Part shown: positions 10,683 to 28,472 of the stretch, piece by piece
Position numbering within the stretch: position 1 is the first letter of the stretch
Layout of the letters: every line of letters begins with the position of its first letter
Assembly (NCBI GenBank): GCA_002255495.1
Contig: NCAP01000003.1
Location: 1 to 52,658, forward strand
DNA from: Rhodospirillales bacterium 20-60-12
GTDB taxonomy: Bacteria; Pseudomonadota; Alphaproteobacteria; Acetobacterales; Acetobacteraceae
Length of the DNA: 52,658 bases
Direction of reading: 5' to 3'
Notes under the pieces: generated by a model
What the model was told of the DNA's origin: nothing
Database searches by the model: none
What the model saw: only the letters and a program-made list of their open reading frames with translations
Position numbers and translations under genes: made by a program

Positions 10683-11010
10683 CAAAATCCTAAAGGGTGG
10701 TGAGCGTCGATATTCGGCTGGAGATGAGCAACAACATTTGTTGGTTATAGCGCAGAGCATGGGGGATGTCACGCCTATTCCCATGCCCGTATTCGTCATG
10801 GCTTTGAGGGCGGGGCGACGGATGTGCGCTGTGTGCGCCCAGCGCCGATGCCGCATGTGCCGCGCGGCGCCCCCACACGCAAGTCGAACTCGTCATCGAG
10901 TTCGCGATGTTTTGCTGTCTCCGGCAGATGCCCTTGTCTGGGCCTGTGTGTCTGTCCACATGCCAAAGCGCGGTGGTGAAACGCAGCTGCCATCGATCGA
11001 CAAGAGGAGA
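10683..11010. other. Gene-free stretch before the glucoamylase gene
   Basis: About 330 bp between the tRNA and the glucoamylase start. The glucoamylase frame stays open through it, but the encoded residues look non-coding (cysteine/arginine rich). It includes a perfect 8-bp hairpin at 10883-10902 (CGAACTCG, loop TCAT, CGAGTTCG) followed by a short T-run. Confidence 0.5.
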
Positions 11011-13407
11011 ATGGTCATCGCCGACGCACCTGGCTTTCCTGGTATTGAGCCCCGCTGGACGACAAGTGCCAAAGATGGTGTCGGCACCGCCCTCTCGCCG
11101 CGGAGTGCCGTGTGGTTTACCCATAGCCACGGCATCGTCAATGAGATCTATTATCCCAGTGTCGATCAAGCCTGCACGCGTGATTGCGAGCTGATTGTAA
11201 CGGATGGTATGGCCGGCGGGTTTTTCGCTGAAGAGAAACGCGATACGATCACTGTGACGCGCCGTTATGCTGATGGCGTTCCTTCGTTCATCATCACCAA
11301 TACGTGCCGGCGAAATCGCTTTACGATCGAAAAGCGAATCACCACCGATCCAGAGCATGATTGCGTCATTCAGCAGATCCGTTTGATCCCGCATGAGGGT
11401 GTGACCGGCTTGCGGCTGTTTGTCCTGCTCGCCCCTCATCTGGTCAATGGCGGCGCGCACAACACGGCGTGGCTTGGAGATTACAAGGGTGCGCCGATGC
11501 TTTTTGCCAGCGGCGATCATGCGGCTTTAGCGTTGGCGTGCTCCGGCGGATTTGCCGAGCGGAGCGTCGGCTTCGTCGGTGCTTCGGACGGTTGGCAAAT
11601 TTTGCATAAACACGGGTATCTGGCGGAGATATATGATCGAGCCGCTGACGGTAACGTTGCCCTGGTTGCTGAAATCGATGCGAAGGCGCCGGTCATTTTG
11701 GCCATCGGGTTCGGGCGGACAGGTGAAACCGCATCGTTCCAGGCTGCCGCTGGTCTGGCGCGGGGCTATGGTCGGATCGAGGCCGAATATGCCGCGCATT
11801 GGCAGGCTTGGCAAAGTGAGTTGCAACCGCTCGATCCGGTGCATCAGAGTGCGCCGCATAATTATTATCGGATCAGCACAACGGTGCTGCGCTGCCACGA
11901 AAGCCCGCTTTTTCCCGGCGGCTCGATCGCCAGCCTCTCGATCCCGTGGGGCGCCAGCAAGGGCGATGATGATCTGGGCGGATATCATCTGGTCTGGCCG
12001 CGCGATCTCGCGGAAACGGCAGGTGCGTTATTGGCGTGCGGGGCGCTGACGGATGCGCGGCGCGCGTTGGATTATCTGCGGGTCATTCAGGAGGCGGACG
12101 GGCACTGGCGGCAAAATTCATGGCTCGATGGTTCAGCCTATTGGAACGGAACGCAGATGGATGAAACCGCGTTCCCGATTCTGTTGCTCGATCTCGCTTT
12201 TCGTCACGGCGCTTTGTCGGAGGCGGAATGGCTGGATTATTGGCCGATGGTGAAGCGTGCTTGTGCCTTTATCGTCAGTCATGGTCCGGCGACAGACCAG
12301 GATCGCTGGGAAGAGAACGCGGGATATACGCCTGCGACGATCGCTGTGGAAATTGCTGCCCTGCTGGCCGGGGCCGATCTAGCTGACAAAGCGGACGAGC
12401 CTCGGATTGCAGAGTTCTTGCGTGACACCGCCGATGCGTGGAACGCCGATATCGAAAGCTGGATGTATGTGCGCGACACTGAGCTGGCAAAGAGGTGCAT
12501 AGTCGCTGGATATTATCTGCGCATTGTGGCCGAAGGCGACCATGACCTCTCGTTGGCGCCGGTTCATGCCCGGATTGACGTGCGAAATCGTCCCACCAAG
12601 GCGGCCGACATGGCGACGGACGAATTGGTCGGCGCGGACAGTCTTGCACTCGTGCGATTTGGTTTACGCTCGGCTGATGATCCGCGCATTCTCGATACGT
12701 TGAAAGTCATTGACCACCTTACCAGGGTTGAGTTGCCGCAAGGCCCGGTTTGGCACCGTTACAATAATGATGGGTACGGTGAGCATGCTGACGGGCGGCC
12801 ATTTGACGGAACCGGGCACGGCCGGGCGTGGCCATTGCTCACCGGCGAGCGGGCGCATTACGCGATTGCCGCCAATGATATGGCGCAGGCCGAGGGGCTT
12901 GTCCAAACGATGGAGAATTGCACGAGTGAGGGCGGGCTGCTGCCCGAGCAGGTTTGGGATGACGCTGATATTCCCGAACGCGAGTTGTATCTGGGCCGCC
13001 CCACCGGTTCGGCCATGCCGCTGGTATGGGCGCATGCTGAATATGTGAAGCTGCTCCGCTCGTTGCGCGATGGCGCGATATTTGATCTGCCGCCGCAGAC
13101 GGTGCAGCGCTACATTGTCGACAACACGCAGCCACGCTGCCGCGACTGGCGCGAGAGCTGGCGGCGGAGCCGGTTGCCGGCGGGACAAATTTTGCGGGTC
13201 GAATTAAGCAGTCCTGGCATTGTAAGGTGGAGCGATGACAACTGGATGACATCACGCGATATGCCGACGACCGATGACGGGCTTGGAATTCATGCAGTGG
13301 CTTTACCTACCGGGTCTCTTGTCGCTGGGCAGAGCGTTATATTCACCTGGCATAATTCACAAGGAAATTGGCGCGGCGTGGATTTCGCGGTTGCGATCGT
13401 TGAGTGA
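11011..13407 (+). CDS. Glucoamylase, glycoside hydrolase family 15
   Basis: 798 aa. An N-terminal beta-sandwich domain typical of bacterial glucoamylases begins almost at once (PGIEPRWTTSAKDGVGTAL, VWFTHSHGIVNEIYYP). The (alpha/alpha)6 catalytic domain includes YHLVWPRDLAETAGAL, the general acid region DRWEENAGYTPATIAVE and the general base region GGLLPEQVWD. The reaction is release of glucose from non-reducing ends of alpha-glucans. No signal peptide is seen after the chosen start, suggesting a cytosolic enzyme acting on storage glucan. The ATG at 11011 has AGAGGAGA directly before it. It stands alone. Confidence 0.93.
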   Translation: MVIADAPGFPGIEPRWTTSAKDGVGTALSPRSAVWFTHSHGIVNEIYYPSVDQACTRDCELIVTDGMAGGFFAEEKRDTITVTRRYADGVPSFIITNTCRRNRFTIEKRITTDPEHDCVIQQIRLIPHEGVTGLRLFVLLAPHLVNGGAHNTAWLGDYKGAPMLFASGDHAALALACSGGFAERSVGFVGASDGWQILHKHGYLAEIYDRAADGNVALVAEIDAKAPVILAIGFGRTGETASFQAAAGLARGYGRIEAEYAAHWQAWQSELQPLDPVHQSAPHNYYRISTTVLRCHESPLFPGGSIASLSIPWGASKGDDDLGGYHLVWPRDLAETAGALLACGALTDARRALDYLRVIQEADGHWRQNSWLDGSAYWNGTQMDETAFPILLLDLAFRHGALSEAEWLDYWPMVKRACAFIVSHGPATDQDRWEENAGYTPATIAVEIAALLAGADLADKADEPRIAEFLRDTADAWNADIESWMYVRDTELAKRCIVAGYYLRIVAEGDHDLSLAPVHARIDVRNRPTKAADMATDELVGADSLALVRFGLRSADDPRILDTLKVIDHLTRVELPQGPVWHRYNNDGYGEHADGRPFDGTGHGRAWPLLTGERAHYAIAANDMAQAEGLVQTMENCTSEGGLLPEQVWDDADIPERELYLGRPTGSAMPLVWAHAEYVKLLRSLRDGAIFDLPPQTVQRYIVDNTQPRCRDWRESWRRSRLPAGQILRVELSSPGIVRWSDDNWMTSRDMPTTDDGLGIHAVALPTGSLVAGQSVIFTWHNSQGNWRGVDFAVAIVE

Positions 13408-16168: not shown

Positions 16169-16903
16169 ATGGATGAAGTGACGGATTTTTTCTCAGACAG
16201 CCCAGTGCCCCGCTATTCTCAATTAGCCGATCTTTTCCGGCATCGAATAGCGCGTGGCGTTTGGCCATCCGGCACTAAGCTGCCCTCCAATGAAGTTCTG
16301 GCCCGTGAGCATAATGTCGCGCGGGTCACGATCCGGCAGGCGATCGAAATCCTTGCCCGGGAAGGGGTGGTCGAAGCCCAGCAAGGTCGTGGCACCTTCG
16401 TCATTGGGCCGGCCAGCAATGACCGGTGGCTGCGCGTTGAAACGACTCTCGCCAGTCTGGCCGAGGTTTATCGTGATACCGATCCCGAATTGCTCAATCT
16501 CGCGGAAGGCATGCGTGATCCGGGGCTTGAAGCCGCCGACGGGATCAAGGCACCGCACTATTTTTATATGCGGCGCGTTCATGCCCGGCATAAACGACCA
16601 TATTGCATCATTTCGATCTATCTGGATGAGCGCATTTTCAAGAAGGCGCCCGAGGCGTTTCGGACACAAACAGTTATCCCGCTCCTGACCGAGTTGCGCA
16701 GCCCCAAAATCGCCCGTGCCCGCCAGAGCCTCACAATCAGTGCAGCGGACATGGAAACAGCACGCTATCTGGGCATCGCCGTGAATGCGCCGGTCGCCGA
16801 AGTCAGGCGGGTGTTCAATGCGGCCGACGGTACCGTCATCTATCTTGGTGAGGTGACATATCGGGGTGATTTCCTGCATCTTGAAATGGATCTCAAGCCG
16901 TGA
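16169..16903 (+). CDS. GntR family regulator, HutC/UTRA type
   Basis: 244 aa. The N-terminal winged helix is clear (PRYSQLADLFRHRIARGVWP, GTKLPSNEVLAREHNVARVT, LAREGVVEAQQGRGTFV). The rest matches a UTRA ligand domain (IISIYLDERIFKKAPEAF, VAEVRRVFNAADGTVIYLGE). UTRA proteins usually sense sugars, sugar acids or amino-acid breakdown products. It overlaps the enolase-superfamily gene (GTGA at 16900-16903), so it probably controls that enzyme and possibly the neighbouring sugar locus. AGGA lies 6 nt before the ATG. Confidence 0.9.
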   Translation: MDEVTDFFSDSPVPRYSQLADLFRHRIARGVWPSGTKLPSNEVLAREHNVARVTIRQAIEILAREGVVEAQQGRGTFVIGPASNDRWLRVETTLASLAEVYRDTDPELLNLAEGMRDPGLEAADGIKAPHYFYMRRVHARHKRPYCIISIYLDERIFKKAPEAFRTQTVIPLLTELRSPKIARARQSLTISAADMETARYLGIAVNAPVAEVRRVFNAADGTVIYLGEVTYRGDFLHLEMDLKP

Positions 16904-18033
16904 GCGGCGCGGTTCTGCGCAGGCTCGAGACATATGTATTTCGCTATCCCATTGCGACACCGGTGCAGACGTCCTTTGGCATCATGCATGACCGTCCAGC
17001 GGTCTTTGTCCGGCTGGAGGATGAGGATGGCTGTCATGGCTGGGGCGAGGTGTGGTGTAATTTTCCATCCGTCGGCGCGGAACATCGCGCGCGCCTGGTC
17101 AGGGATGTTTTGGGCGAGATGGTCGTCGGTTATGCGCTCAATGACCCGGCATCCCTGTTCAACCATCTCACGCAAGCGACCGCCGTGATGGCACTTCAAG
17201 CGGGCGAGCGCGGCCCCCTGGCGCAGTCTATCGCGGCGGTTGATCTGGCGGCGTGGGACATCATGGCCAAACGCGCAGGCTCGCCGCTCTGGCGCTATCT
17301 GGGCGGTGCCTCACCTCATATCGCCGTATATGCAAGCGGCATCAATCCACAGGAACCAGCGCGCCTCGCGCGGGCAAAATTCGCGGAGGGCCACCGCGCC
17401 TTTAAGATCAAGATCGGCTTTGGCGCGGCCCGCGACATCAGAAATCTGCAGGAGGTCCGGTCCGCTCTCGGTGCCGCGCATCTGGCGGCGGATGTGAATC
17501 AGGCTTGGTCATTCGGCGATGCCTTGGCCATGATACCGTCACTAACAGCGTTCGACCTGGCCTGGCTTGAGGAGCCGCTGCGCTGCGACCGGCCTTGGCA
17601 TGAATGGCGGCAGCTTGCCCAAGCTGGCGCCCCTCCGCTGGCCGCTGGCGAAAATCTGGACACTGCCGCGCAGTTCGGGGCCGCATTGCGAGAGGGAGAT
17701 CTCGCCGTGATCCAGCCCGATGCCACCAAATGGGGTGGGTTCTCGGGATGTCTGCCGGTTGCGCAGGCCATACGAGAAGCCGGCAAAAAGGTCTGCCCGC
17801 ATTTTCTCGGTGGCGGGATCGGTCTTGTAGCCTCGGCGCATTTACTCGCGGCAGCCGGTGGCGATGGCATGCTCGAGGTTGACGCAAATGAAAATCCTCT
17901 GCGCGACCTCATCGCCGGACCGCAATTAACAGTCACGCAGGGCAGGGTTTGCCTTTCCGATCAGCCTGGGCTCGGCATCGAACCTGACCTAGCGTCGATC
18001 GCGCAATATCGCGTGAGACATATCCGTCTTTAG
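16900..18033 (+). CDS. Mandelate racemase/muconate lactonizing enzyme family protein
   Basis: 377 aa of the enolase superfamily. The N-terminal capping domain covers about residues 1-125. The barrel contains the K-x-K motif in AFKIKIGFG, metal ligands in AADVNQAW, LEEPLR and AAGENL, and a histidine in KKVCPHFLGGGIG. The family abstracts the alpha proton of a carboxylate; with K-x-K and a late His, acid-sugar dehydratase or racemase activity is likely. Substrate cannot be set; sugar-acid dehydration fits the aldolase and dehydratase genes nearby on the other strand. The start is GTG at 16900 overlapping the regulator's stop. The stop codon merges with repeat R3. Confidence 0.85.
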   Translation: MSGAVLRRLETYVFRYPIATPVQTSFGIMHDRPAVFVRLEDEDGCHGWGEVWCNFPSVGAEHRARLVRDVLGEMVVGYALNDPASLFNHLTQATAVMALQAGERGPLAQSIAAVDLAAWDIMAKRAGSPLWRYLGGASPHIAVYASGINPQEPARLARAKFAEGHRAFKIKIGFGAARDIRNLQEVRSALGAAHLAADVNQAWSFGDALAMIPSLTAFDLAWLEEPLRCDRPWHEWRQLAQAGAPPLAAGENLDTAAQFGAALREGDLAVIQPDATKWGGFSGCLPVAQAIREAGKKVCPHFLGGGIGLVASAHLLAAAGGDGMLEVDANENPLRDLIAGPQLTVTQGRVCLSDQPGLGIEPDLASIAQYRVRHIRL

Positions 18034-18252: not shown

Positions 18253-19005
18253 TCACCTATCCATTGCCGCCAGAATATCCGCTGCACGTGAGGTCAGCAT
18301 GGCCATATCGGACCCGATGGCAACAAACTGATAGCCATAGCCGAGAAAAAGCTTTGCCATGTCCAAATTGGGCGCCAAAATACCAACCGGCAGTCCGGTT
18401 GCACGGGCCGTGGTTACCGCGCCGGCCAGAACATCCTGCACGGCTGCATGGCCGATGTCACCGATATGACCCATCGCCGCAGAGAGATCACCAGGGCCGA
18501 TGAATAAGCCGTCAACACCGATGACATTCGCAATCGCTGTCAAATTGGCAATCGCTTCGGGTGTCTCCAGTTGCACGATCAGGAAGGCACGATCATTGGC
18601 GGTTTTCAGATAGGTGCGGTCTGCCCCATAGCGGCTTGCACGATGCATTGCCGCCACGCCGCGCCGGCCTGCCGGCGGGTAGCGCATGGCCTGTGCGGCG
18701 GCTTCGGCCTGTGCCGCGTCCTGCACGAACGGAACCATGAGTGTCTCCCCGCCCGCATCCATGACGCGCTTGATCCAGATCGGGTCGTTCCACGGTATGC
18801 GTACCACCGGCACGGAAGGCGTGTTCCCGATGGCGCGCAATAGGTCGACGGCCTCCGGCGTATCGACCGGCACATGCTCCATATCGACCACGAGAAAGTC
18901 GAACCCGGCATGACCCAGAGCCTCCGCCGTGGCGGGCGCACCGCTCATCAGCCAGGTGCCGATCGGAACACCCTTGCCGAGTTTCGTGCGAAATGGATTT
19001 GCCAT
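18253..19005 (-). CDS. HpcH/HpaI family aldolase (2-keto-3-deoxy sugar acid aldolase)
   Basis: 250 aa, a class II pyruvate aldolase. Visible features: IGTWLMSG start, catalytic His in VVDMEHVPVD, the pyruvate-binding arginine in VVRIPWND, metal-ligand Glu in IVQLETPEAI and Asp in LFIGPGDLSAAMG. The family splits 2-keto-3-deoxy acids to pyruvate plus an aldehyde; the KDSG aldolases of sulfo-Entner-Doudoroff pathways belong here as well as GarL/RhmA types. It is the last gene of the minus-strand operon, just after the IlvD/Edd dehydratase, which makes exactly such substrates. ATG at 19005 has AAAGG upstream; a TTG at 19020 would overlap the dehydratase gene. Confidence 0.9.
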   Translation of the reverse strand: MANPFRTKLGKGVPIGTWLMSGAPATAEALGHAGFDFLVVDMEHVPVDTPEAVDLLRAIGNTPSVPVVRIPWNDPIWIKRVMDAGGETLMVPFVQDAAQAEAAAQAMRYPPAGRRGVAAMHRASRYGADRTYLKTANDRAFLIVQLETPEAIANLTAIANVIGVDGLFIGPGDLSAAMGHIGDIGHAAVQDVLAGAVTTARATGLPVGILAPNLDMAKLFLGYGYQFVAIGSDMAMLTSRAADILAAMDR

Positions 19006-19016
19006 GATGGGACCTT

Positions 19017-20756
19017 TCAAAAAATCGGCGGTTCGGGCACGCCGCCGCGGCCGGCGAGGAAATCAAAATCGCAGCCATCGGGGGCCTGATTGACATGACG
19101 TTTGTAGAGCCAGCCATATGAGCGCTCATATGTTTCCGCGGGCGGCATCCAGGCGGCGCGGCGGAGGGCTAATTCGGCTTCATCCACCAGCATGTCTAAG
19201 GTGCCGGCCGCGACGTCGAGTGCGATCATATCGCCGGTGTGCAGCAGCGCGAGCGGGCCGCCGGTGGCCGACTCCGGAGCGATATGCAGCACGCAAGTAC
19301 CGTAATGCGTGCCGCTCATCCGGCCGTCGCTCAGGCGCAGAATGTCGCGCACGCCGCGTTCCAGCAGCGGCTTGGGGATCGGCAGATTGCCCCATTCGGG
19401 CATGCCGGGCGCGCCCACAGGCCCGGCATTGCGCAATACCAGCACCGTATTTTCGTCGATCTGGCTGGCAGGGTCGTCAATGCGTGCCGCCATGTCGGCC
19501 GGATTATCAAACACCAATGCTCTGCCGGTATGTTGCAGTAAATGCATGCTGGCAGCACTGGTTTTGATCACCGCGCCATCCGGACAGAGATTGCCGCGCA
19601 CCACCGCGAGCGTGACGCCTTTATCCAGCGGCACGACCGCCTGAGTGGGGTCGCGGATGACGTCGTCATCATAGCACATCGCATCTTTGATGTTGTCGCC
19701 TAATGTCCGGCCATTGACGGTCATGCAATCTTCATGGATCGCGTTGCCCAGTTTGCGCAGCAAGGCAGGCAGGCCACCGGCAAAAAAGAAATCCTCCATC
19801 AGATGCACGCCTGAGGGATATAAGTTGGCGCACACCGGAATTCTGCGGGCGGTTGCGGCCAAATCATCCAGGGTCAGAGCAATGCCGGCGCGTCGCGCCA
19901 GGGCAATGATATGGATCGCCGCATTGGTTGAGCCGCCAAGGGCCATGCACGCGGTCACGCCATTTTCGACCGCCCTCTCATTGAGCAGCGTAGACAGTTT
20001 CATATCCTCCCACACCATGCCGACAATGCGCTCTCCGCATGCCGAAGCCATTCGCGGGTGGCCGGAATCGGCTGCCGGGATCGAGGATGCGCCAGGCAAG
20101 GTCAGTCCCATGGCCTCTATGATCGATGTCATCGTCGAGGCGGTGCCCATGGTATTGCAGGTGCCGATCGACCTCGTCATGCGGCTTTCCAGTTCGATCC
20201 AGTCCGCCTCGGAGATGTTGCCCGCGCGTCGTTCCTCCCAGTATATTTTGGTGTGCGTGCCGGCGCCCACCAAAGTGCCGCGGAACTTGCCGTTCAACAT
20301 CGGCCCTGCAGGACAGAAAATGGCTGGAATATCCATGCTGATTGCCCCCATCAGCATGCCGGGAGTGGTTTTGTCGCAACCGCCCAGCAGCACCGCCCCG
20401 TCAATCGGCAGCGAGCGCAACAACTCCTCGACCTCCATGGCGAGCAGATTGCGGTAGAGCATCGTGGATGGCTTCACCAGCACCTCGCCCAGCGAGAGCG
20501 CCGGCAATTCGACCGGATAGCCACCTGCCTGCCAGACACCGCGCTTTACTGCCTCGGCACGCTCCCGCAGATGGATATGGCAAGGGCTGAGATCGCTCCA
20601 GGTGTTGATAATGCCGATCACCGGCCGGCTCATGAACTCCTCGCGCCTCAGCCCCATTTGCAAGCTGCGCTGGCGGTGTGCAAAGCCGCGAATATCAGTC
20701 CCCGCATACCATCGCTGGCTGCGCAACGTCTCCACCGGCCTGTGTTTGTTGTTCAT
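19017..20756 (-). CDS. IlvD/Edd family sugar acid dehydratase
   Basis: 579 aa, matching L-arabinonate/xylonate-type dehydratases (about 580 aa). Iron-sulfur/Mg2+ family motifs are seen: LLGGCDKTTPGMLMGA, GTCNTMGTASTM (cluster cysteine), ACMALGGSTNAAIHI, and SDGRMSGTHYGTCVLHIAPE near the C-terminus. It should convert an aldonic acid to its 2-keto-3-deoxy form. Sulfogluconate dehydratase of sulfo-ED is in the same family, so the exact acid is open. It overlaps the upstream ATPase gene by 4 bp (20753-20756) and precedes the aldolase gene that would use its product. Confidence 0.92.
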   Translation of the reverse strand: MNNKHRPVETLRSQRWYAGTDIRGFAHRQRSLQMGLRREEFMSRPVIGIINTWSDLSPCHIHLRERAEAVKRGVWQAGGYPVELPALSLGEVLVKPSTMLYRNLLAMEVEELLRSLPIDGAVLLGGCDKTTPGMLMGAISMDIPAIFCPAGPMLNGKFRGTLVGAGTHTKIYWEERRAGNISEADWIELESRMTRSIGTCNTMGTASTMTSIIEAMGLTLPGASSIPAADSGHPRMASACGERIVGMVWEDMKLSTLLNERAVENGVTACMALGGSTNAAIHIIALARRAGIALTLDDLAATARRIPVCANLYPSGVHLMEDFFFAGGLPALLRKLGNAIHEDCMTVNGRTLGDNIKDAMCYDDDVIRDPTQAVVPLDKGVTLAVVRGNLCPDGAVIKTSAASMHLLQHTGRALVFDNPADMAARIDDPASQIDENTVLVLRNAGPVGAPGMPEWGNLPIPKPLLERGVRDILRLSDGRMSGTHYGTCVLHIAPESATGGPLALLHTGDMIALDVAAGTLDMLVDEAELALRRAAWMPPAETYERSYGWLYKRHVNQAPDGCDFDFLAGRGGVPEPPIF

Positions 20757-21817
20757 GGTAAAATACCGGCTGGCAACGCAGCACCGCTGTCTGGATCAAA
20801 CAAATACGCTTTGCCTGACGCCACAGCGAGCGGCAGGCGCTCGCCTACAAGCGGTTTGGTATCGGGCGCAACCCGGGCGATGCATTTGATGTCACCGACC
20901 AGAAAATGCACCAGCGTGTCTGAACCAAGCGGCTCGACCAGCGTAACCTCGACCGGCATGCCGCTGCCATCCGGTGCTGGAACAAAATGTTCGGGCCGGA
21001 TGCCCAGCACGGCTTGGCCCTCAAGCGTCGCGCCGATATTTAGTTTACGGCCATCGAGGAGATGCGCTGCGCCCTTGAGCAATGTCACAGGTAGAAAATT
21101 CATCGATGGCGAGCCAATGAAGCCGGCGACAAATCGGTTTGCCGGACGTCCGTAAATCTCCTCCGGCGCACCGACCTGCTGGATCACGCCGCCGCGCAGT
21201 ACGACAATGCGGTCCGCCATCGTCATCGCCTCGACCTGGTCGTGCGTGACGAACACCATCGTCGTCTTGAGCCGCTGCGAAAGCGCCTTGATCTCGCTGC
21301 GCACCTGACCGCGCAATTGGGCATCGAGATTCGAAAGCGGTTCGTCGAAGAGAAATACTTTCGGGTCGCGCACGATGGCGCGGCCCATCGCAACGCGCTG
21401 CCGCTGGCCGCCGGAGAGTGCACGCGGGCGGCGTTTGAGCAAGGGCCCGATATCGAGAAGGCGCGCCGCGTTCTGTACCCGCGCGTCGATCTCGGCTGCC
21501 GGCGTATGGCGCATCTGCAGGCCGAAAGCCATGTTCTGGTACACGGTCATATGCGGGTAGAGAGCATAGTCTTGAAACACCATGGCAATATCACGCTCTG
21601 CAGGGGTCAGATCATTCACCCGTTGATTGCCGATATAAAGATCACCCTCGGTAATCGGCTCAAGCCCGGCGATGATCCGCAGCAATGTCGATTTTCCGCA
21701 CCCCGACGGGCCGACAAACACAACAAATTCATGATCTAAGATTTCAAGATCAAGACACGGTATAACCTCGATTGCCCCGAAGCGTTTTTTTAAGCCCTGC
21801 ATTCGCACTGATGCCAC
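20753..21817 (-). CDS. Sugar ABC transporter ATP-binding protein (MalK/UgpC type)
   Basis: 354 aa. Walker A is GPSGCGKST, the signature LSGGQRQRVAMGRAIVRDPK, Walker B FLFDEPLSNLD, and the switch His is in VFVTHDQVEA. A C-terminal TOBE/MalK regulatory part follows (NIGATLEGQAVLGIRPEHF). It energises uptake with the two permeases and binding protein of the same operon. It lies 4 bp after the MalG-like permease gene. Confidence 0.95.
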   Translation of the reverse strand: MASVRMQGLKKRFGAIEVIPCLDLEILDHEFVVFVGPSGCGKSTLLRIIAGLEPITEGDLYIGNQRVNDLTPAERDIAMVFQDYALYPHMTVYQNMAFGLQMRHTPAAEIDARVQNAARLLDIGPLLKRRPRALSGGQRQRVAMGRAIVRDPKVFLFDEPLSNLDAQLRGQVRSEIKALSQRLKTTMVFVTHDQVEAMTMADRIVVLRGGVIQQVGAPEEIYGRPANRFVAGFIGSPSMNFLPVTLLKGAAHLLDGRKLNIGATLEGQAVLGIRPEHFVPAPDGSGMPVEVTLVEPLGSDTLVHFLVGDIKCIARVAPDTKPLVGERLPLAVASGKAYLFDPDSGAALPAGILP

Positions 21818-21821
21818 GCTG

Positions 21822-22661
21822 TTATCCTTTCACCGCGCCAAGAGTGAGGCCGGCCACCAGCCAGCGCTGGACCGCGATGGCGAGCACCAGCGGCGGCAGC
21901 GCGATTAGAGTGGCCGCAGCCATCAATCCACCCCAATCGGTTGAGCCCTCGCCGATATAATTGAACGCGGCCACCACCAGCGGTTTGGTATTTTCATCCG
22001 ACAGCACCAACGCAAATAAGAAGTAGTTCCAGGAAAATACGAACGCCAGAATGGTCGCGATCACCAGCCCGGAACTGACCAACGGCAGAGCCACGCGCCA
22101 CAGGCTGCGTAATGTACCGCACCCATCGACGCCGGCAGCCTCCAAAATACTGCGCGGAATGGCGTCAAAAGCCGGCAGCAAAACCCAGATGACGATCGGC
22201 AGCGTAATTGCGGCCTGCGTCAGGATCAATGCGCCATAGGTACCCACCATGCCCAGATCACGAAACACGATATACCATGGGATCAGGAATAAAGTCCCTG
22301 GGGCCATACGAGCGGATAACGTGACCAGGGCAGGCCAGCTTGAGCGTGTGATCGAGGCGGCATAGGCAGCGGGGACGCCCAGCAGCAACCCGATCAAGGT
22401 TGAACTGCCACTCTCGATCAGGCTGTTGCGCGCATAGGAAAAAAACGGTGTCGTCTGCAGCAATCTTGTATAATTTTCCAGTGTCGGCCGGAACAAGAAT
22501 GTCGGAGGATAAGCGGTCACATCGGCCGATGATTTGAACGATGAACTCACCATCCAGATGATCGGAAACAGAATCCCAGCGGCCACGATCACCAGCTGCG
22601 CAATGACGGACATGCGCATCCAACGGTCACGTCGTGATTCCGACATCACATGATCGCTCAT
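21822..22661 (-). CDS. Sugar ABC transporter permease, MalG type
   Basis: 279 aa, about six membrane segments. The EAA loop that contacts the ATPase is visible (EAAGVDGCGTLRSLWRVALP). The typical MalG start region follows a short cytosolic tail (FPIIWMVSSSFKSSADV). ATG at 22661 is chosen because GAGACGAG precedes it and it begins 7 bp after the first permease gene; a longer frame to 22712 would overlap that gene. Confidence 0.93.
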   Translation of the reverse strand: MSDHVMSESRRDRWMRMSVIAQLVIVAAGILFPIIWMVSSSFKSSADVTAYPPTFLFRPTLENYTRLLQTTPFFSYARNSLIESGSSTLIGLLLGVPAAYAASITRSSWPALVTLSARMAPGTLFLIPWYIVFRDLGMVGTYGALILTQAAITLPIVIWVLLPAFDAIPRSILEAAGVDGCGTLRSLWRVALPLVSSGLVIATILAFVFSWNYFLFALVLSDENTKPLVVAAFNYIGEGSTDWGGLMAAATLIALPPLVLAIAVQRWLVAGLTLGAVKG

Positions 22662-22668
22662 TCTCGTC

Positions 22669-23550
22669 TCACCAATCGATGGCCCTGCGCAACCGGTTGA
22701 GCGCCAGCACAACGCCGAACACCATGGCGGTCAATGTCATGGCCAACGCGCTTGCATAGCCGAACTGGAACAGTTCAAAGCCGATATGAAAGCCATAGAT
22801 ATTCAATGTGTCAGAGGCGTTGAGGGGCCCGCCTTGCGTCGTGACGTAAATGATATCGAAGAAGCGCAACAGATCGACGGTGCGCAAAATGGCCGCTGTC
22901 GCCAGAGTGGGCAGCAGGAGCGGCAATGTAATCCGCCAGAATACCAGACGGGGGGGGGCACCATCGATCTTCGCGGCTTCATAGACGCTTGGTGGCAGCG
23001 ATTGCAGCCCACCCAGAACGATCAGCGCGACAAAGGGCATCCATTGCCATGTGTCGATCAACGCGACCGTCGGGATAACCCATTCCGGCGAGGCAAGCCA
23101 TGCCGAGGGGGCAATGCCGAACAGGCTGAGCACCCAATTCGCCGCCCCCAATGACGGATCGAGGATGATAAGAAACATCATCCCGACAACAACCGGCGGT
23201 ACCATGAAAGGCGAGATCAGGATCGAACGCAAAATGGCGGGCATGCGCTTGGCCTGAAACAATAGCAGCGCCAGATAAGTGCCGCCCGTCAGCTGCATGG
23301 CAAGGGAGATGACATATAATGTCAGGCTCACTTTGATACTGTTCCAGAATTGCGGTGAGTCAGCCAATTGCGCATAATTGGCAAACCCGACAAACTGCGT
23401 GGCATGACCTAAAGGCGCGGTCCGGAAGCTGAGCCATATGGTGTAGAGAATCGGAAACACCACCATCATGGCTGTGAACAGAACCGCTGGCATCGCGAGT
23501 ACAGCAAGCGCGCCGCGTTGGCGCGAGGAGGCGGAAATATGCATATTCAT
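22669..23550 (-). CDS. Sugar ABC transporter permease, MalF type
   Basis: 293 aa with six predicted membrane segments. The EAA loop reads [25 protein letters not shown]. Its ATG overlaps the stop of the SDR gene (ATGA at 23547-23550). A run of nine C on the coding strand (G at 22950-22958 on the plus strand) encodes the A-P-P-R of the EAA loop; slippage there would frameshift the gene. It pairs with the MalG-type permease downstream. Confidence 0.93.
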
Positions 23551-24299
23551 CCGGCCAGAAACCCGCCGTCGGCGGCAATCACAGTGCCGGTGACATAGGA
23601 TGAGGCGGGCATGCATAGGAACGCCACAGCGCCGGCTACCTCTGCCGGCTGCCCCCAGCGGCCGAATGCCGTGCGTTCGGCGATGTGCCGGTAGTGCGCG
23701 GCATCACTTCGTCCCGCCGCGTTCAACGATGTCTCGATATAGCCGGGTGCAACGGCGTTGACGCGGATGCCATCGGCGGCCCAGGCGAGTGCGAGCGATT
23801 TAGTCAGCATCACGACACCCCCCTTGCTCGCGCAATAAGCCGGTATCCGCGGCAGGGCGGCAAACGCATTCATTGAGGCGATATTGACGATCGACCCGGA
23901 GCGCCGGGCGAGCGCCGCGCGAAACGCATTGCAGACCCGAAATGTGCCAGTGAGATTGACATCCAGAACCTGCTGGAAGACATTAATGTCGAACTCAGCG
24001 TCACGGCGCACGATGCCGGCACAATTAACCACCGCGTCAATCTGGGCAAAGCTCCCGGCGAACGCCGTGACCTGTTGGTTGTTGGTCACATCGAGCACCG
24101 CCAATGCGAGCCGCTCATGGGGTTCCAGTGCACTGCCCCCAACCGCTGCCGCATCAACACCGGTGGCCGTGACATGGGCGCCGAGATCCAGGAAGATCCG
24201 AGAAATTTCGGCACCAATGTCACCGCATCCACCGATCACGGCGACGCGAAAATCCGCATTGAGCCGAAATTGTCCGGGCGTCACCGTGTCAACCGCCAT
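23547..24299 (-). CDS. Short-chain dehydrogenase in the sugar operon
   Basis: 250 aa, classical SDR. NAD(P) motif is [11 protein letters not shown], followed by NCAGI, catalytic Ser in NIASMNAF and YCASK, then [12 protein letters not shown]. It lies between the binding protein and the permeases, so it is co-transcribed with the transporter. It probably oxidises the imported sugar, or its lactol, as the first step before the dehydratase; sulfoquinovose dehydrogenase of sulfo-ED is also an SDR. It could equally be a sugar alcohol dehydrogenase. It overlaps the binding-protein gene by 11 bp with the ATG at 24299; a TTG at 24308 is possible. Confidence 0.88.
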
Positions 24300-25587
24300 C
24301 TTTGGCAATCAATGTGTTCAAAGATGCGTCGGCAGCGCCGCAGGCGGCAGCCGGCGTCTTGGTGCCGACAATGACATTATCGACGGCATCGCCGATATAT
24401 TGGCGTGATTCCGGATTATCGACGATCGGATAGCCAACATCGGAAGTCCCCGTCGTCGCGAGCTCACTCACGGCTTGCTGCCACTGCGTGCGCACAGGTT
24501 CCGCTTTCAGCCACGCCTGCACGGCGCGGTCTTTGGCAATCGATGCCCGTGGTGCGGCAATGCCGGCAAGTTGATTTTTAGCCTGCATGTCCGGGCTGGT
24601 GGCCCATTGGATCAGGTACCAGGCTGCACCTTTGTGGGTGCTGTAGGGAGACATGGCGAGCCCCCAGTCGATCGCGGTCGGATGCGAACCGCCAGGCCCT
24701 GGGGGCAGAAGTGCCACACCGGTATCGCCAAGCCGTGCACCTCCTTGCATGACATCCGACAATTCATTCGATGATTCAAAGGCCATGGCGGCCCGTCCAT
24801 CGCGATACAATGAGGAGATCTGGTAAAAGCTGTAATTGACCACACCGAGCGGTCCAAATTGGCGCAGTAGATCGCCATATAGTTTCAATGCCGCAAGGCC
24901 CTGCGGTGAGCACAACCCGGATTTTCCATCAACGATGTATTGCCCACCCATATTATGAAAAAATGCACTATATGTGTAGGGAAGTGCGTCTCTCAAGCCG
25001 CGTGAGACGAACGGGGTGACCGAGGGATCGCAGGCCTTGATTTTTTGCGCGGCCAACTCAAGATCTGCCAATGTCGCGGGCACGGCCACATGGCATTTGC
25101 GGAGAATATCGGCCCGATAATACAATACCGGACCTTCGATATTCATCGGAATACTGGTGAGTTTGCCATTGATCGTAGCTGCTTTCAGCAAGGCCGGACT
25201 CAGACCGTTAAAATCATACGATGAACTAACGTCGCCCGTCATTGGTGTGAGGTCGGTATACCATCCTGCTTTTGCGAATTGCGCTCCCTCGCGCGACGGC
25301 AAGGTCATGAAGACATCGATCTGATTGCTGTTGGCATCAAGCACTGTCACCAGGCGCTGGCGCATCTGCTGCTCGGTAAAAATATCAACCTTCAACGTAA
25401 TACCGGTCAGCTTTTCAAAGGCATCAGCATTCGTGGCGATAACCTTACCGATCGGATTATTGTCGACCAACACTTCGATTGTTTGGCCTTTATATTTCTG
25501 CCAATTGAAACTGGCTGCATGAGCGGAGATCGGCAATAATATAGAAACCGCCAAGGCCAAAACGCGCCGCGCGTATTGTGCAGTCAT
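24289..25587 (-). CDS. Extracellular sugar-binding protein, family 1
   Basis: 432 aa. A Sec signal peptide is clear (basic MTAQYARR, hydrophobic [11 protein letters not shown], cleavage probably after AHA). The mature part has a family 1 periplasmic binding fold ([47 protein letters not shown]). It delivers the substrate to the MalFG-type permeases. It is the first gene of the minus-strand operon, 130 bp from the divergent plus-strand genes. Confidence 0.93.
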
Positions 25588-25635
25588 GATTATATTCCTC
25601 CCGAAGCGACCATATCAGGATCAATCTGTTGACTG

Positions 25636-25657
25636 GTCGTATGGCTTATAGTACGAC
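25636..25657. promoter_or_regulatory. Candidate operator in the divergent promoter
   Basis: GTCGTA (25636-25641) and TACGAC (25652-25657) form an inverted repeat with a 10-bp spacer, between the binding-protein and aldolase genes. A second pair, CGACCA near 25609 and TGGTCG near 25634, surrounds it on one side. TTGACT at 25629-25634 could be a -35 element. This is where a shared regulator would bind. Confidence 0.4.
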
Positions 25658-25753
25658 ATTGGAGCTAGCGCCTCATTGCCCCATTGTCAATCAGGCTCGC
25701 ACGAATGAGGTGTCGCATTGTCCGAAAATAATCCACCAGGGAGCGGAGAGATC

Positions 25754-26626
25754 ATGCATGACATAAGCGTCGCCATGGCGCGCATGGCGCGTCCCTCCGG
25801 AGCCTTTGCCATGCTCGCCATCGATCAGCGCGAAGGTTTGCGCGTGATGATGGCGGAGCATCAGCTTGGTCCCGTTGCCGATGAAACGCTGACCGAATTT
25901 AAACTCGAGGTCATTGAAGCGCTGTCGCCCTATGCCTCGGCTGTCTTGATCGACCGTGAGCTGGCTTGGGAGCAGGCGCTGGCCGCTGGGGTAACAGCGC
26001 CATCCTGCGCGTTGATCGCTGCCGCCGATACGCTCGTGCCCGGCCCCGGCGAACTTGTCGCGTCAGTCGAGATCGACCGGGCGGTGGAACCTGCACAGGT
26101 GCGCGCACAGGGAGCCGTTGCCTTGAAATTGCTCGTGCTCTGGCGTCCAGATGAACCGGTGGCACCGCGGATTGCCATGGTCGATGAGTTCATCGCGGTT
26201 TGCCATGCCGCAGGCCTTGCCAGCGTCGTTGAGCCTGTGACTCGCCGTCCGCGGGACGGCGGAGCGTGGGATCGCGAGGCTGCCATTATTGCTGCGGCCA
26301 GGGAACTTGGCCGGCGCGGGCAGGATCTGTACAAATGTGAGGTGCCGCTGTTGGGCGCAGGGTCGGAGGCCGATATGCGGCGCGCGTACGCGGCGATGGC
26401 GCGGCATGTCCAAAGTCCGTGGGTGGTGCTTTCCTCCGGCGTCAAACAAGATGAGTTTCCGCAGGCAGTGGAATGGGCCTGCCGCGAGGGCGGCTCCGGT
26501 TTCCTGGCCGGGCGTGGCATCTGGTCCGGCGTCATCGGAAGGCGCGATATGAAACAGGCTTTGCGTGAGGATGCCGTGCCGCGGCTGGAGCGGCTATGCT
26601 CCATTGTCGACAGGGTGATGGCGTGA
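25754..26626 (+). CDS. YihT-like class I aldolase (sulfofructose-phosphate aldolase-like)
   Basis: 290 aa, close to E. coli YihT (292 aa), which cleaves 6-deoxy-6-sulfofructose-1-phosphate to DHAP and sulfolactaldehyde. Matching stretches recalled from YihT: SGAFAMLAIDQREGLRVMM, ALSPYASAVLID, ALKLLVLWRPDE, DLYKCEVPL (Schiff-base Lys), PWVVLSSGVKQDEFPQAVE and SGFLAGRGIWSGVIG. The substrate could also be an ordinary ketose phosphate, since LacD tagatose-bisphosphate aldolases share the fold. ATG at 25754 has GGAGAG before it; a TTG at 25718 is less likely. It heads a three-gene operon with a dehydrogenase and a YihV-like kinase, each joined by a 4-bp overlap. Confidence 0.87.
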   Translation: MHDISVAMARMARPSGAFAMLAIDQREGLRVMMAEHQLGPVADETLTEFKLEVIEALSPYASAVLIDRELAWEQALAAGVTAPSCALIAAADTLVPGPGELVASVEIDRAVEPAQVRAQGAVALKLLVLWRPDEPVAPRIAMVDEFIAVCHAAGLASVVEPVTRRPRDGGAWDREAAIIAAARELGRRGQDLYKCEVPLLGAGSEADMRRAYAAMARHVQSPWVVLSSGVKQDEFPQAVEWACREGGSGFLAGRGIWSGVIGRRDMKQALREDAVPRLERLCSIVDRVMA

Positions 26627-27585
26627 GAGCCGCACGCTTTCTCGGTGACGGCCGGATCAGCATTATCGATGCGGCAGCGCCGGTCCTCGGCCCGGATGAG
26701 GTGATCGTGGATGTGGCGGCTTGTGCGCTATGCGGCAGCGATTTCCGCCCGTTGCAGCAAGGCTGGCCATTGACCCCAGGGCATGAAATTTTCGGCCATG
26801 TGCGCGCGCCCGGCACTGCCGATCATGGCCGGCGCGTATTGGTCTATATCCCGACATTTTGCGGCCAATGCGTGCAATGCGTCGCCGGGCGCACCCATTT
26901 ATGCCCGCACGCGGAATTATTGGGCTGGCAGCGTCCGGGCGGCTATGCGCAATCCCTGGCGGTACCGCGGCGCTGTCTGCTGGCGGTCCCGGATGATATT
27001 CCCGACCGGCTGGCGCCGCTGCTTTTGGATGTCATCGGCACCACCGCTCACGGCATTCGTCAGGCTGCGCGGGTTGTGCAGCCGGGCGCAGCCTTGGTCA
27101 TTGGCGCGGGCCCGATTGGGCTCGGATCGCTTTTGGTGTTGCAGGCTCTGCAATGGGGCCCGATTTTTGTGTGCGAACCTAACCCTCAGCGCGCGGCATT
27201 TGCCGCAAGCCTGAGTGCCACAGTGCTGACAGCTAAACAGGCCGAGGCGCTGCAAGTGCCGTTGGTGATCGAGGCGAGTGGCAAAGATGCCGGGCGGGCC
27301 CTGGCGCTCACCGCGGTCGCGCAGGAGGGAGCCGCCGTGCAACTCGGCGAAAGCGACCAATGGAGCATCAGCGAAACGCGAGCAATAAGGCGGAAGGATT
27401 ATTTTCTGATCCGATCGTTCTATTTCCCACTCAGCGACTATGCGGCGAATATAAAGATATTGCGGGCCAATCTCTCACAGTTTGAAAAACTCGTTGATGC
27501 GACGGCGGATCTCGATGGTCTGGAGACATTATTCGCCGCCTTCGCGCGCGGCGAACGCATAAAGCCGCTGCTTTGCCCGACTTGA
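26623..27585 (+). CDS. Zinc-dependent alcohol dehydrogenase (MDR family)
   Basis: 320 aa. Catalytic zinc ligands are suggested by ACALCGSD and GHEIFGHV; the structural zinc site by CGQCVQCVAGRTHLC; the Rossmann motif by VIGAGPIGLGSLL. Such enzymes oxidise sugar alcohols or reduce sugar aldehydes and ketoses. Placed between an aldolase and a kinase gene, it could make the ketose that the kinase uses, or reduce/oxidise the aldehyde product. GTG at 26623 overlaps the aldolase stop (GTGA); the next gene overlaps its own stop (TTGA). Confidence 0.87.
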   Translation: MRAARFLGDGRISIIDAAAPVLGPDEVIVDVAACALCGSDFRPLQQGWPLTPGHEIFGHVRAPGTADHGRRVLVYIPTFCGQCVQCVAGRTHLCPHAELLGWQRPGGYAQSLAVPRRCLLAVPDDIPDRLAPLLLDVIGTTAHGIRQAARVVQPGAALVIGAGPIGLGSLLVLQALQWGPIFVCEPNPQRAAFAASLSATVLTAKQAEALQVPLVIEASGKDAGRALALTAVAQEGAAVQLGESDQWSISETRAIRRKDYFLIRSFYFPLSDYAANIKILRANLSQFEKLVDATADLDGLETLFAAFARGERIKPLLCPT

Positions 27586-28472
27586 AGCGGGTCCTCTGTT
27601 TCGGTATCGCTGTGTTCGACCGGATTTACGAAGTCGAGACGCTACCGACAGGGGATGAAAAATACACCGCCACCGGATACCGCGAAAGCGGCGGCGGCGT
27701 GGCAGCGACGGCGGCTGTGGCGGTGGCGCGGTTAGGCGGGCATGCGGCTTTCATGGGGGCACTGGGCGACGATCCCGCAGGACGCTGGCTTGCCGCCGAA
27801 ATGAGTGCTCTCGGCGTCGCGCTTGATGTGGTTCAGTATGTTGCTCATGGCCGCACGCCCAACGCCTGCGCCCTGGTGGCCCCTGATGGCGGGCGCTGCC
27901 TGATCATCGACCGCGGCACCGCACGGCCTGCAAGTGCTGCACCGGACAGCGCATGCGCAAATGTCGACGCATTGCTGGTCGATCACCGCTTTCCCGATTT
28001 GGCCGCTGCCTTGCTCATCGGCGCCCCGCGCACCATGCCCCGTATATTGGACGCTGAGGGCGGTGACCCAGAGGCACTCCGGCACCTTGTCGCCCTGGCG
28101 CAATATCCCATTTTCTCATCGACCGGCCTTAGACTTTGCACCGGCCAGGATGATCCGTTGGCCGCGCTCAGCCGGGTATCCGCGCCGCAGGCGCGATGCC
28201 TCGCGGTGACGCGGGGCGCGGCGGGTAGCCTATGGCTGATCGATGGGCAGGTTCATCACGTGGCCGCACCGCCTGTGGCGGCGCGCGATACGACCGGCTG
28301 CGGCGATGTCTTTCACGGCGCCGTGGCATTGGCTTTGGCGGAGGGCCAACACCTTCTCGACGCCGCGCGGTTCGCAACCGCCGCCGCAGCCCTCAAGGCC
28401 CTTAACGGGGACGGCTGGCGCGGCATGCCGGACCGCCAGGCAGTGCAGGCGTTGCTGAAGGAAAGCTGGTAG
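27582..28472 (+). CDS. PfkB-family sugar kinase, YihV-like (sulfofructose kinase-like)
   Basis: 296 aa of the ribokinase family: an N-terminal glycine motif (SGGGVAATAAVAVARLGG) and a C-terminal catalytic motif DTTGCGDVFHGA with the base Asp. The start at TTG 27582 overlaps the dehydrogenase stop and brings the protein into register with E. coli YihV, sulfofructose kinase (FGIAVFDRIYEVETLPT, EKY with Lys27, GDDPAG). As I recall YihV, sulfonate-contacting residues include Lys27, Asn109 and Arg138. Here Lys27 and an Arg (DHRFPD, residue 136) are kept but position 109 is Ile. The substrate may therefore be sulfofructose or another ketose. Confidence 0.85.
   Translation: MKRVLCFGIAVFDRIYEVETLPTGDEKYTATGYRESGGGVAATAAVAVARLGGHAAFMGALGDDPAGRWLAAEMSALGVALDVVQYVAHGRTPNACALVAPDGGRCLIIDRGTARPASAAPDSACANVDALLVDHRFPDLAAALLIGAPRTMPRILDAEGGDPEALRHLVALAQYPIFSSTGLRLCTGQDDPLAALSRVSAPQARCLAVTRGAAGSLWLIDGQVHHVAAPPVAARDTTGCGDVFHGAVALALAEGQHLLDAARFATAAAALKALNGDGWRGMPDRQAVQALLKESW

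Follow-up and report, generated by a model that had tools for sequence, protein, structure and literature searches.

A candidate sulfosugar locus pairing sulfo-Entner-Doudoroff-related and sulfo-EMP-like genes in an Acetobacteraceae genome bin

Introduction

Sulfosugars, whose degradation drives the cycling of organosulfur, are produced in gigaton amounts; they include sulfoquinovose, the sugar of plant sulfolipids, and its 4-epimer sulfofucose. Which substrate, then, would be served by a locus in which enzymes typical of two splitting routes, the sulfo-Entner-Doudoroff (sulfo-ED) and the sulfo-Embden-Meyerhof-Parnas (sulfo-EMP) pathways, diverge from a single intergenic region? Such a locus lies in contig NCAP01000003.1 of Rhodospirillales bacterium 20-60-12 (52,658 nucleotides, hereafter the window), which makes up the whole of contig C23 in a genome bin of 2.97 Mb with 94% completeness. 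In the reading favoured here, which we hold with about as much belief as doubt, the locus would be a pair of operons for the import and breakdown of a sulfosugar (a C6-sulfonated hexose), with an ED branch derived from the sulfo-ED pathway and an isomerase-free, sulfo-EMP-like branch. This reading is favoured because relatives of its importer, short-chain dehydrogenase/reductase (SDR), Zn-dehydrogenase and kinase co-occur elsewhere with an aldehyde dehydrogenase (ALDH) of the sulfolactaldehyde (SLA) dehydrogenase type and with a TauE-type exporter; judging from the sequences, the ED branch is also fairly well supported by descent.

Gene layout of the locus

The initial annotation had placed a set of sugar genes on two arms around one divergent region, and family profiles and PDB matches agree with it in both coordinates and families. 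The minus arm runs from 25587 down to 18253 (binding protein, SDR, MalF, MalG, MalK, IlvD, HpcH) and the plus arm from 25754 to 28472 (aldolase, Zn-dehydrogenase, PfkB kinase). An MR/MLE gene beyond HpcH, missed at first, is counted here as a member of the locus. The nearest named match to the window aldolase (78% identity) is found in a metagenome-assembled genome (MAG) of Acidocella sp. (Acetobacterales, Acidocellaceae; its locus is called L002 below). The features are the following.

16169..16903, plus strand: GntR/UTRA-family regulator (PF00392, PF07702), adjoining the MR/MLE gene; locus membership uncertain
16900..18033, plus strand: enolase-superfamily (MR/MLE) acid-sugar dehydratase-like protein, possibly a second aldonate dehydratase (PF13378/PF02746; 80% identical and syntenic in L002)
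18253..19020, minus strand: HpcH/HpaI aldolase, predicted to split 2-keto-3-deoxy-sulfoaldonate into pyruvate and SLA (PF03328; tree)
19017..20756, minus strand: IlvD/Edd dehydratase, predicted to be of sulfogluconate type (NF009559 over cut-off, PF00920; tree)
20753..21817, minus strand: MalK/UgpC-type ATPase of the ABC importer (NF008653 over cut-off; 90% and syntenic in L002)
21822..22712, minus strand: MalG-type permease (NCBIfam; 93% in L002, 61-65% in six Rhizobiaceae/Variovorax loci)
22669..23616, minus strand: MalF-type permease (NCBIfam; 90% in L002, 60-64% in the same six loci)
23547..24308, minus strand: SDR oxidoreductase, predicted sugar or polyol dehydrogenase (PF13561)
24289..25587, minus strand: sugar-binding protein of the ABC importer (PF01547)
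25588..25753, no strand: divergent intergenic (promoter) region
25754..26626, plus strand: YihT-type class I aldolase, predicted to split a ketose 1-phosphate into dihydroxyacetone phosphate (DHAP) and an aldehyde (PF01791; PDB; tree)
26596..27585, plus strand: Zn-dependent medium-chain dehydrogenase, predicted polyol/ketose dehydrogenase (PF08240)
27573..28472, plus strand: YihV-like PfkB kinase, predicted ketose 1-kinase (PF00294; best PDB match 7ag6; alignment; tree)

This layout is not a matter of chance, because in L002 the MR gene and all genes of both arms are ordered and oriented as in the window, with identities of 80-93% (77% for the kinase). IlvD and HpcH immediately follow MalK, their ends overlapping, and the ATG at 25754, preceded by a GGAGCGG box, is a more probable start of the YihT-type aldolase than the TTG at 25718. 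A block at ~25622-25654 of the intergenic region is conserved in three genomes (alignment of the window, L002 and L039). No shared inverted repeat was found, and a promoter scan gave one candidate against 0.5 expected from shuffles, which is about the shuffle level. No counterpart of the GntR regulator was found in L002; a GntR and MR pair also exists in Bradyrhizobium (L038; 62% for GntR and 57% for the nearby MR). Upstream of the locus, the window also encodes a GH15-family protein with a glucodextranase N domain (10738-13407).

Descent of the ED branch

The sulfo-ED pathway has been described in P. putida SQ1 and R. leguminosarum SRDI565 (PMC10599462, PMC12890257). The sulfo-ED gene set is recognizable in clusters of Ensifer, Microvirga and Rhizobium, which encode an ABC importer, an HpcH aldolase, an SMP-30 lactonase, an SDR, a GH31 alpha-glucosidase and TauE, together with, in two of the three, an ALDH of the succinate-semialdehyde-dehydrogenase (SSADH) type. 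The enzyme classes of the minus arm had been likened to this route from the start, and the trees bear this out for two of them. The IlvD tree has 26 rows, which include the window, the Acetobacteraceae genomes G566 (locus L125) and G522 (L126), and 13 of the 17 other stored Acetobacteraceae loci. In it, the window and L002 are sister to the sulfo-ED dehydratase of G566 (77% identity) at 100/100, and an 11-row clade, likewise at 100/100, holds the window IlvD, all six sulfo-ED rows and a Variovorax row with a TSUP neighbour. An IlvD match (E ≤ 1e-150) was found in 152 of 299 family genomes; among the matches listed, with at most four candidates scored per genome, at least 68% identity was reached only in the genome itself, in G566 and in G522, whose gene sits in a sulfo-ED-like cluster. 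An ordinary family IlvD was rejected, since the other listed Acetobacteraceae matches do not exceed 60%, and the 13 included in the tree group with two plasmid rows in a clade of their own.

The HpcH tree (15 rows) agrees: the window aldolase is sister to that of G566 at 98/97, within a nine-row clade (95/97) that also holds the sulfo-ED rows and a Salipiger row. The S. mexicanum aldolase, 50% identical to the window HpcH and used for comparison with the sulfofucolytic SfcE type, joins this clade from outside (92/99); GarL, YfaU and the aldolases of Variovorax and Skermanella branch beyond it. With these placements, sister to the G566 pair in both trees, the IlvD/HpcH pair of the window shares descent with sulfo-ED enzymes. 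The SDR and the MR protein have their relatives in a Shinella locus (66% and 48%, respectively). The MR protein is only 25-28% identical to galactonate-dehydratase-like genes of S. mexicanum and Arthrobacter loci; its identification as SfcF was rejected at 28%, with the S. mexicanum gene standing in for SfcF as its presumed homologue.

By its gene content, the G566 locus (G566:C6:147000-166900) is a compact cluster of the sulfo-ED type within the Acetobacteraceae. Its GH31 protein shares 45% identity with E. coli YihQ and 59% with the Ensifer GH31, and lies far above the cut-off of the alpha-glucosidase model PRK10426, which we take to represent YihQ (871 versus 553 bits). The cluster also carries a sulfo-ED-type SDR (64%), an SMP-30 lactonase, TauE and an SSF symporter. 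Further genes there encode an OprB porin, a thiamine pyrophosphate enzyme and a 2-hydroxyacid dehydrogenase; the set with the latter two could extend to further breakdown of the C3 sulfonate.

In G566 the sulfo-ED cluster and a module of importer, Zn-dehydrogenase, kinase and YihT lie on separate contigs, while they form one joint locus in the window and in L002. The window could on that account hold a relict sulfo-ED pair inserted by accident beside an unrelated transporter and kinase operon, with no joint pathway, and the locus indeed carries neither a lactonase, nor a sulfoquinovosidase, nor an SDR of the sulfo-ED type. We regard such a juxtaposition as very improbable: both halves are intact and identically arranged in two genomes, the ends of IlvD, HpcH and MalK overlap, and an ED plus EMP content recurs in Variovorax (L034), in Arthrobacter (L009) and in a published Paracoccus cluster (PMC12421959).

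The sulfo-EMP-like branch

The plus-arm enzymes are, as proposed initially, kin of YihT and YihV. The aldolase matches E. coli YihT at 48.8% identity over 281 aa, and the kinase matches YihV at 37.9% over 301 aa; their best solved relatives are 7ag7, 7ag1 and 1to3 (E ~1e-84), which include sulfofructosephosphate aldolase, and 7ag6, a sulfofructose kinase, respectively. In trees built without the L044 aldolase and the L048 kinase, the window aldolase falls in the E. coli YihT clade at 100/99 against the LacD type, and a LacD-type identity was rejected on this split. The kinases of an Acetobacteraceae group stand next to a group of YihV plus Shinella-type kinases (95/90). A placement within tagatose or fructose pathways, which the initial annotation had named as speaking against its reading, is thus disfavoured for the aldolase, with uncharacterised relatives as LacD-type rows; the kinase tree has no characterised tagatose kinase row.

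The Zn-dehydrogenase is 88% identical to that of L002, 80% to that of G566, 61-65% to those of seven further Acetobacteraceae, 52% to that of G562 and 47% to the Shinella protein. Class-wide searches of 385 genomes with the aldolase (E ≤ 1e-20) and with the Zn-dehydrogenase (E ≤ 1e-70) each returned the genome itself only.

Relatives of the importer in Acetobacteraceae and on plasmids

The binding protein, 57% identical to its Shinella counterpart, has 5iai as best solved relative and SmoF as the fourth. It is present (E ≤ 1e-60) in 13 of 298 family genomes, its own included, and 12 of the 13 neighbourhoods were compared, G449 being left out with a contig of 3.1 kb. Ten of the 12 have a PfkB kinase of one of the reference types (that of G391 is of the Arthrobacter type) and ten a Zn-dehydrogenase of the window type; a YihT-type aldolase is found in seven and a LacD-type one in two, the G666 contig stops at the kinase, and no kinase or aldolase is seen in the stretches covered for G562 and G438. 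Among these 12, the window alone combines its types of IlvD and HpcH in the same locus, G547 having a remote member of the IlvD family (30%) next to its aldolase. G391 keeps the importer, the SDR and an MR fragment at the contig end, with a kinase of a different lineage, another Zn-dehydrogenase and a YihT that is 62% identical. The aldolase itself has a match in 19 of 299 family genomes, six of them with distant matches only (33-35%), two of which were fetched (L052 and L053). The importer, Zn-dehydrogenase and kinase loci L041-L044 and L073-L075 adjoin a regulator of the DeoR type that shares 40-44% identity with E. coli CsqR; other CsqR matches seen score 27-36%.

A plasmid survey yielded 11 records with a binding protein at least 55% identical, six of which were compared (L032, L033, L034, L068, L069 and L070). 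All six carry an SDR, a Zn-dehydrogenase, a kinase, a LacD-type aldolase and a TSUP/TauE-family gene, the latter being distant and on the other strand in Variovorax L034. An MR gene is adjacent in five, split over two frames in L069. Three of the six, including Shinella and S. medicae, encode an ALDH that is 81-83% identical to the Ensifer SLA dehydrogenase, and in the ALDH tree L033 and L070 group with two sulfo-ED ALDHs (97/100). This ties the importer, SDR, Zn-dehydrogenase and kinase family to sulfolactaldehyde, though by way of relatives that are 37-67% identical and have another type of aldolase. Relatives accompanied by GH31 or SLA dehydrogenase, to which the initial annotation had pointed as a check, are found in part: G566 has its GH31 cluster on a separate contig from the importer module, and the ALDH of three plasmid loci comes with a LacD-type aldolase. 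Shinella and sulfolactaldehyde also co-occur in a sulfoquinovose isotope-probing study, as indicated by a search match.

Other loci resemble the window more loosely. Those of a Cereibacter plasmid (L005) and of Aquamicrobium (L003) share the importer, YihT and kinase families, and were rejected as the same system for their other Zn-dehydrogenase, their ALDH and a tartrate-dehydrogenase-type gene. There, an SSADH-like ALDH and the tartrate-dehydrogenase-type gene replace SDR and MR, a set that would be consistent with oxidation of an aldehyde to a 2-hydroxy acid, followed by further conversion. Another ED plus EMP combination is found on a plasmid of Arthrobacter sp. YA7-1, typed as conjugative (L009, 583-13197), which encodes an SDR, a galactonate-dehydratase-like protein, a DHDPS-type aldolase, SMP-30, a PfkB kinase, a YihT-type aldolase, an SSADH-type ALDH and TauE, as well as a Gfo/Idh protein that is a possible NAD-dependent sulfoquinovosidase. 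Finally, arylsulfatase and/or formylglycine-generating-enzyme genes near the hybrid or MR/GntR loci L032, L069 and L038 hint at sulfated substrates nearby.

Weighing the sulfosugar reading

Several observations weigh against a sulfosugar pathway. No SLA reductase, SLA dehydrogenase, exporter, lactonase, isomerase or sulfoquinovosidase was found in the window locus, the last three as the initial annotation had already remarked; YihU and SLA dehydrogenase references have no match in the window, and none of SuyAB, SlcC or ComC was seen in the locus, the bin not having been searched for them. The bin has no GH31 (GH188-type sulfoquinovosidases were not sought), and the YihS-type isomerase family (PF07221) has one match there below the cut-off and none above. 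The closest ALDH of the bin (C71, 59%) falls outside the SLA dehydrogenase clade and was rejected as the missing enzyme; the Arg171/Arg289 pair proposed in PMC10599462 is not diagnostic, because it is also present in E. coli GabD. Three lactonase-family (PF08450, SMP-30) genes lie on three other contigs of the bin, the best being 38% identical to the Ensifer sulfo-ED lactonase. There are also three TauE-family genes on other contigs, two of which (C56 and C11) were compared with the Ensifer TauE and gave no similarity to it, a comparison that is uninformative because the TauE of the G566 cluster fails it too. In addition, the SDR and the binding protein are only 25% and 28% identical to their Ensifer sulfo-ED counterparts and not orthologous to them, and the Shinella-type loci use a LacD-type aldolase and are without IlvD and HpcH.

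These gaps leave room for a locus that handles no sulfonate at all, with plain sugar acids and ketoses as substrates, IlvD as an L-arabinonate-type dehydratase, MR as an aldonate or aldarate dehydratase and HpcH as a GarL-like 2-keto-3-deoxy aldolase. IlvD reaches 895.7 bits to NCBIfam NF009559, 'L-arabinonate dehydratase' (cut-off 882). Moreover, its clade has two exceptions, Salipiger L031 and Paracoccus seriniphilus L037 (68-69%), with no recognised sulfonate genes within ~10 kb of their IlvD, an MR gene and tripartite tricarboxylate transporters being present there; the Salipiger HpcH is inside the sulfo-ED HpcH clade as well. We nevertheless consider this explanation unlikely, given the position of IlvD and HpcH in the trees and the same automatic NCBI name, 'L-arabinonate dehydratase', on the dehydratases of the complete Ensifer, Microvirga and Rhizobium sulfo-ED clusters. 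The modules beside the tripartite tricarboxylate transporters (IlvD-HpcH-MR at 9977-13704 in L031, IlvD-MR at 9992-13077 in L037) may import aldonates or sulfonates directly.

A further contrary point concerns the kinase. Lys27, Asn109 and Arg138 of YihV are taken here to be sulfonate ligands. In the alignment, the window kinase has Ile in place of Asn109, as the initial annotation had read it, and the eight other aligned Acetobacteraceae hybrid kinases (L002, L039, L041-L044, L073 and L075) have Val; YihV and all four Shinella-type kinases aligned retain Asn109. Lys27 and Arg138 are conserved in the window kinase, and are not diagnostic because both also align in 2rbc, a non-YihV sugar kinase, presumably a tagatose kinase. 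The pocket residues thus appear neither to prove nor to exclude a sulfonated ketose. They would fit a split specificity, in which the ED branch acts on a sulfosugar and the Zn-dehydrogenase, kinase and YihT branch on a non-sulfonated ketose or polyol (for example of the tagatose or polyol type), the promoter region being shared since both substrates occur together. The 11 other Acetobacteraceae importer loci compared, which are without IlvD and HpcH of the window type, SLA-dehydrogenase-type ALDH and reference-type TauE, are in line with such a split, as is a further solved relative of the binding protein, 4rya, labelled sorbitol-binding. Against it stand the place of the aldolase in the YihT clade and the Shinella-type loci, where the same importer, SDR and Zn-dehydrogenase families come with TSUP and, in three of six, with the SLA-dehydrogenase-type ALDH. 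We grant it only a minor share of our confidence.

Proposed pathway

Both the substrate and the reactions of the sulfosugar reading are predicted from the sequences. Sulfoquinovose or sulfofucose would be taken up by the ABC importer of this Acidocella-like bacterium. In the ED branch, the SDR would oxidise the imported sugar, the lactone would open spontaneously or through a lactonase encoded elsewhere, IlvD would dehydrate the sulfo-aldonate, perhaps with the MR/MLE enzyme acting on that of the other epimer, and the HpcH aldolase would yield pyruvate and SLA. In the EMP branch, a sulfoketose would arise without an isomerase, through the Zn-dehydrogenase acting by itself or jointly with the SDR; the kinase would then form sulfoketose 1-phosphate, to be cleaved by the YihT-type aldolase into DHAP and SLA. 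SLA would exit via enzymes outside the locus. Such an isomerase-free joining of two known splitting routes would widen the known chemistry and habitats of sulfosugar breakdown.

A more specific version, quite unlikely as a whole, is that of a dual-route pathway serving both epimers, with IlvD for the gluco- and MR for the galacto-configured acid, and sulfofucose drawn from archaeal glycans. In this version the SDR and the Zn-dehydrogenase would turn one sulfosugar into both sulfo-aldonate and sulfoketose, and one aldolase, fed by two dehydratases, would serve both sulfoquinovose and sulfofucose. In published work, dehydratases are split between a sulfoquinovose type (PF00920) and a sulfofucose type (PF13378/PF02746), and sulfofucose is reported in a Thermoplasma acidophilum N-glycan (PMC12421959); this glycan was used to model the density of the pili of Cuniculiplasma, although their exact glycan is not known (PMC12448462). 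The window has one dehydratase of each family. In acidic waters, sulfofucose could derive from N-glycans of Thermoplasmatales archaea. Shared habitats of Acidocella and Thermoplasmatales are plausible from three papers that mention both along with the terms pit lake and anoxic, which says nothing of the window itself; no paper mentioning sulfoquinovose together with Acidocella came up in a full-text search. If true, this version would describe a bacterium feeding on an archaeal surface sugar.

Comparison with known systems

Compared with sulfo-EMP (E. coli yih and an Arthrobacter variant, PMC8873060; further background in PMC12133307, PMC9594981 and PMC13372026), the locus shares a YihT-type aldolase (49%) and a YihV-type kinase (38%), but has no YihS-, YihQ-, YihR- or YihU-like gene, replaces Asn109 by Ile, and has a Zn-dehydrogenase and an SDR instead. 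With the sulfo-ED clusters of Ensifer (L030), Microvirga (L035), Rhizobium (L134) and G566, it shares IlvD (69-77%) and HpcH (58-62%) of the same clades, adjacent and in the same order; unlike them, it carries neither a GH31 sulfoquinovosidase nor a lactonase, TauE or SLA dehydrogenase, its SDR and binding protein belong to other subfamilies, and YihT, YihV and Zn-dehydrogenase genes are added. The uncharacterised loci of Shinella, S. medicae, Neorhizobium and Rhizobium (L033, L068, L070, L032 and L069) resemble it in importer, SDR (63-67%), MR (46-50%), Zn-dehydrogenase (47%) and YihV-like kinase (37-39%), whereas they have a LacD-type aldolase, TSUP (five of five) and an SLA-dehydrogenase-type ALDH (three of five), with no IlvD or HpcH.

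A further comparison is with the sulfofucose (sulfofucolytic ED) clusters. An SDR, an MR-type dehydratase, an HpcH aldolase and an ABC importer stand in one cluster in Paracoccus wurundjeri and in S. mexicanum (L036), the latter being among the species listed for the sulfofucose pathway (PMC12421959). The Paracoccus cluster, likened here by description and not by sequence, is reported to hold an SDR, an HpcH aldolase, an enolase-type dehydratase, a lactonase, an ABC transporter, and also a PfkB kinase, a PF01791 aldolase and a Zn-dehydrogenase, families that of these two clusters it alone shares with the window (PMC12421959, 2025). In that report, only the ED set was shown to act on sulfofucose in vitro, the kinase and the PF01791 aldolase showed no significant increase, and SLA was not oxidised by the Zn-dehydrogenase; some candidate sulfofucose clusters are also described as being without lactonase. 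The window differs in its additional IlvD, in an MR only 28% identical to the S. mexicanum gene and in that no lactonase was seen in the locus. The layout, which was unfamiliar to the initial annotation, is not unprecedented, because the Paracoccus cluster already combines both enzyme sets (PMC12421959), and the locus is best described as a candidate variant of sulfosugar catabolism.

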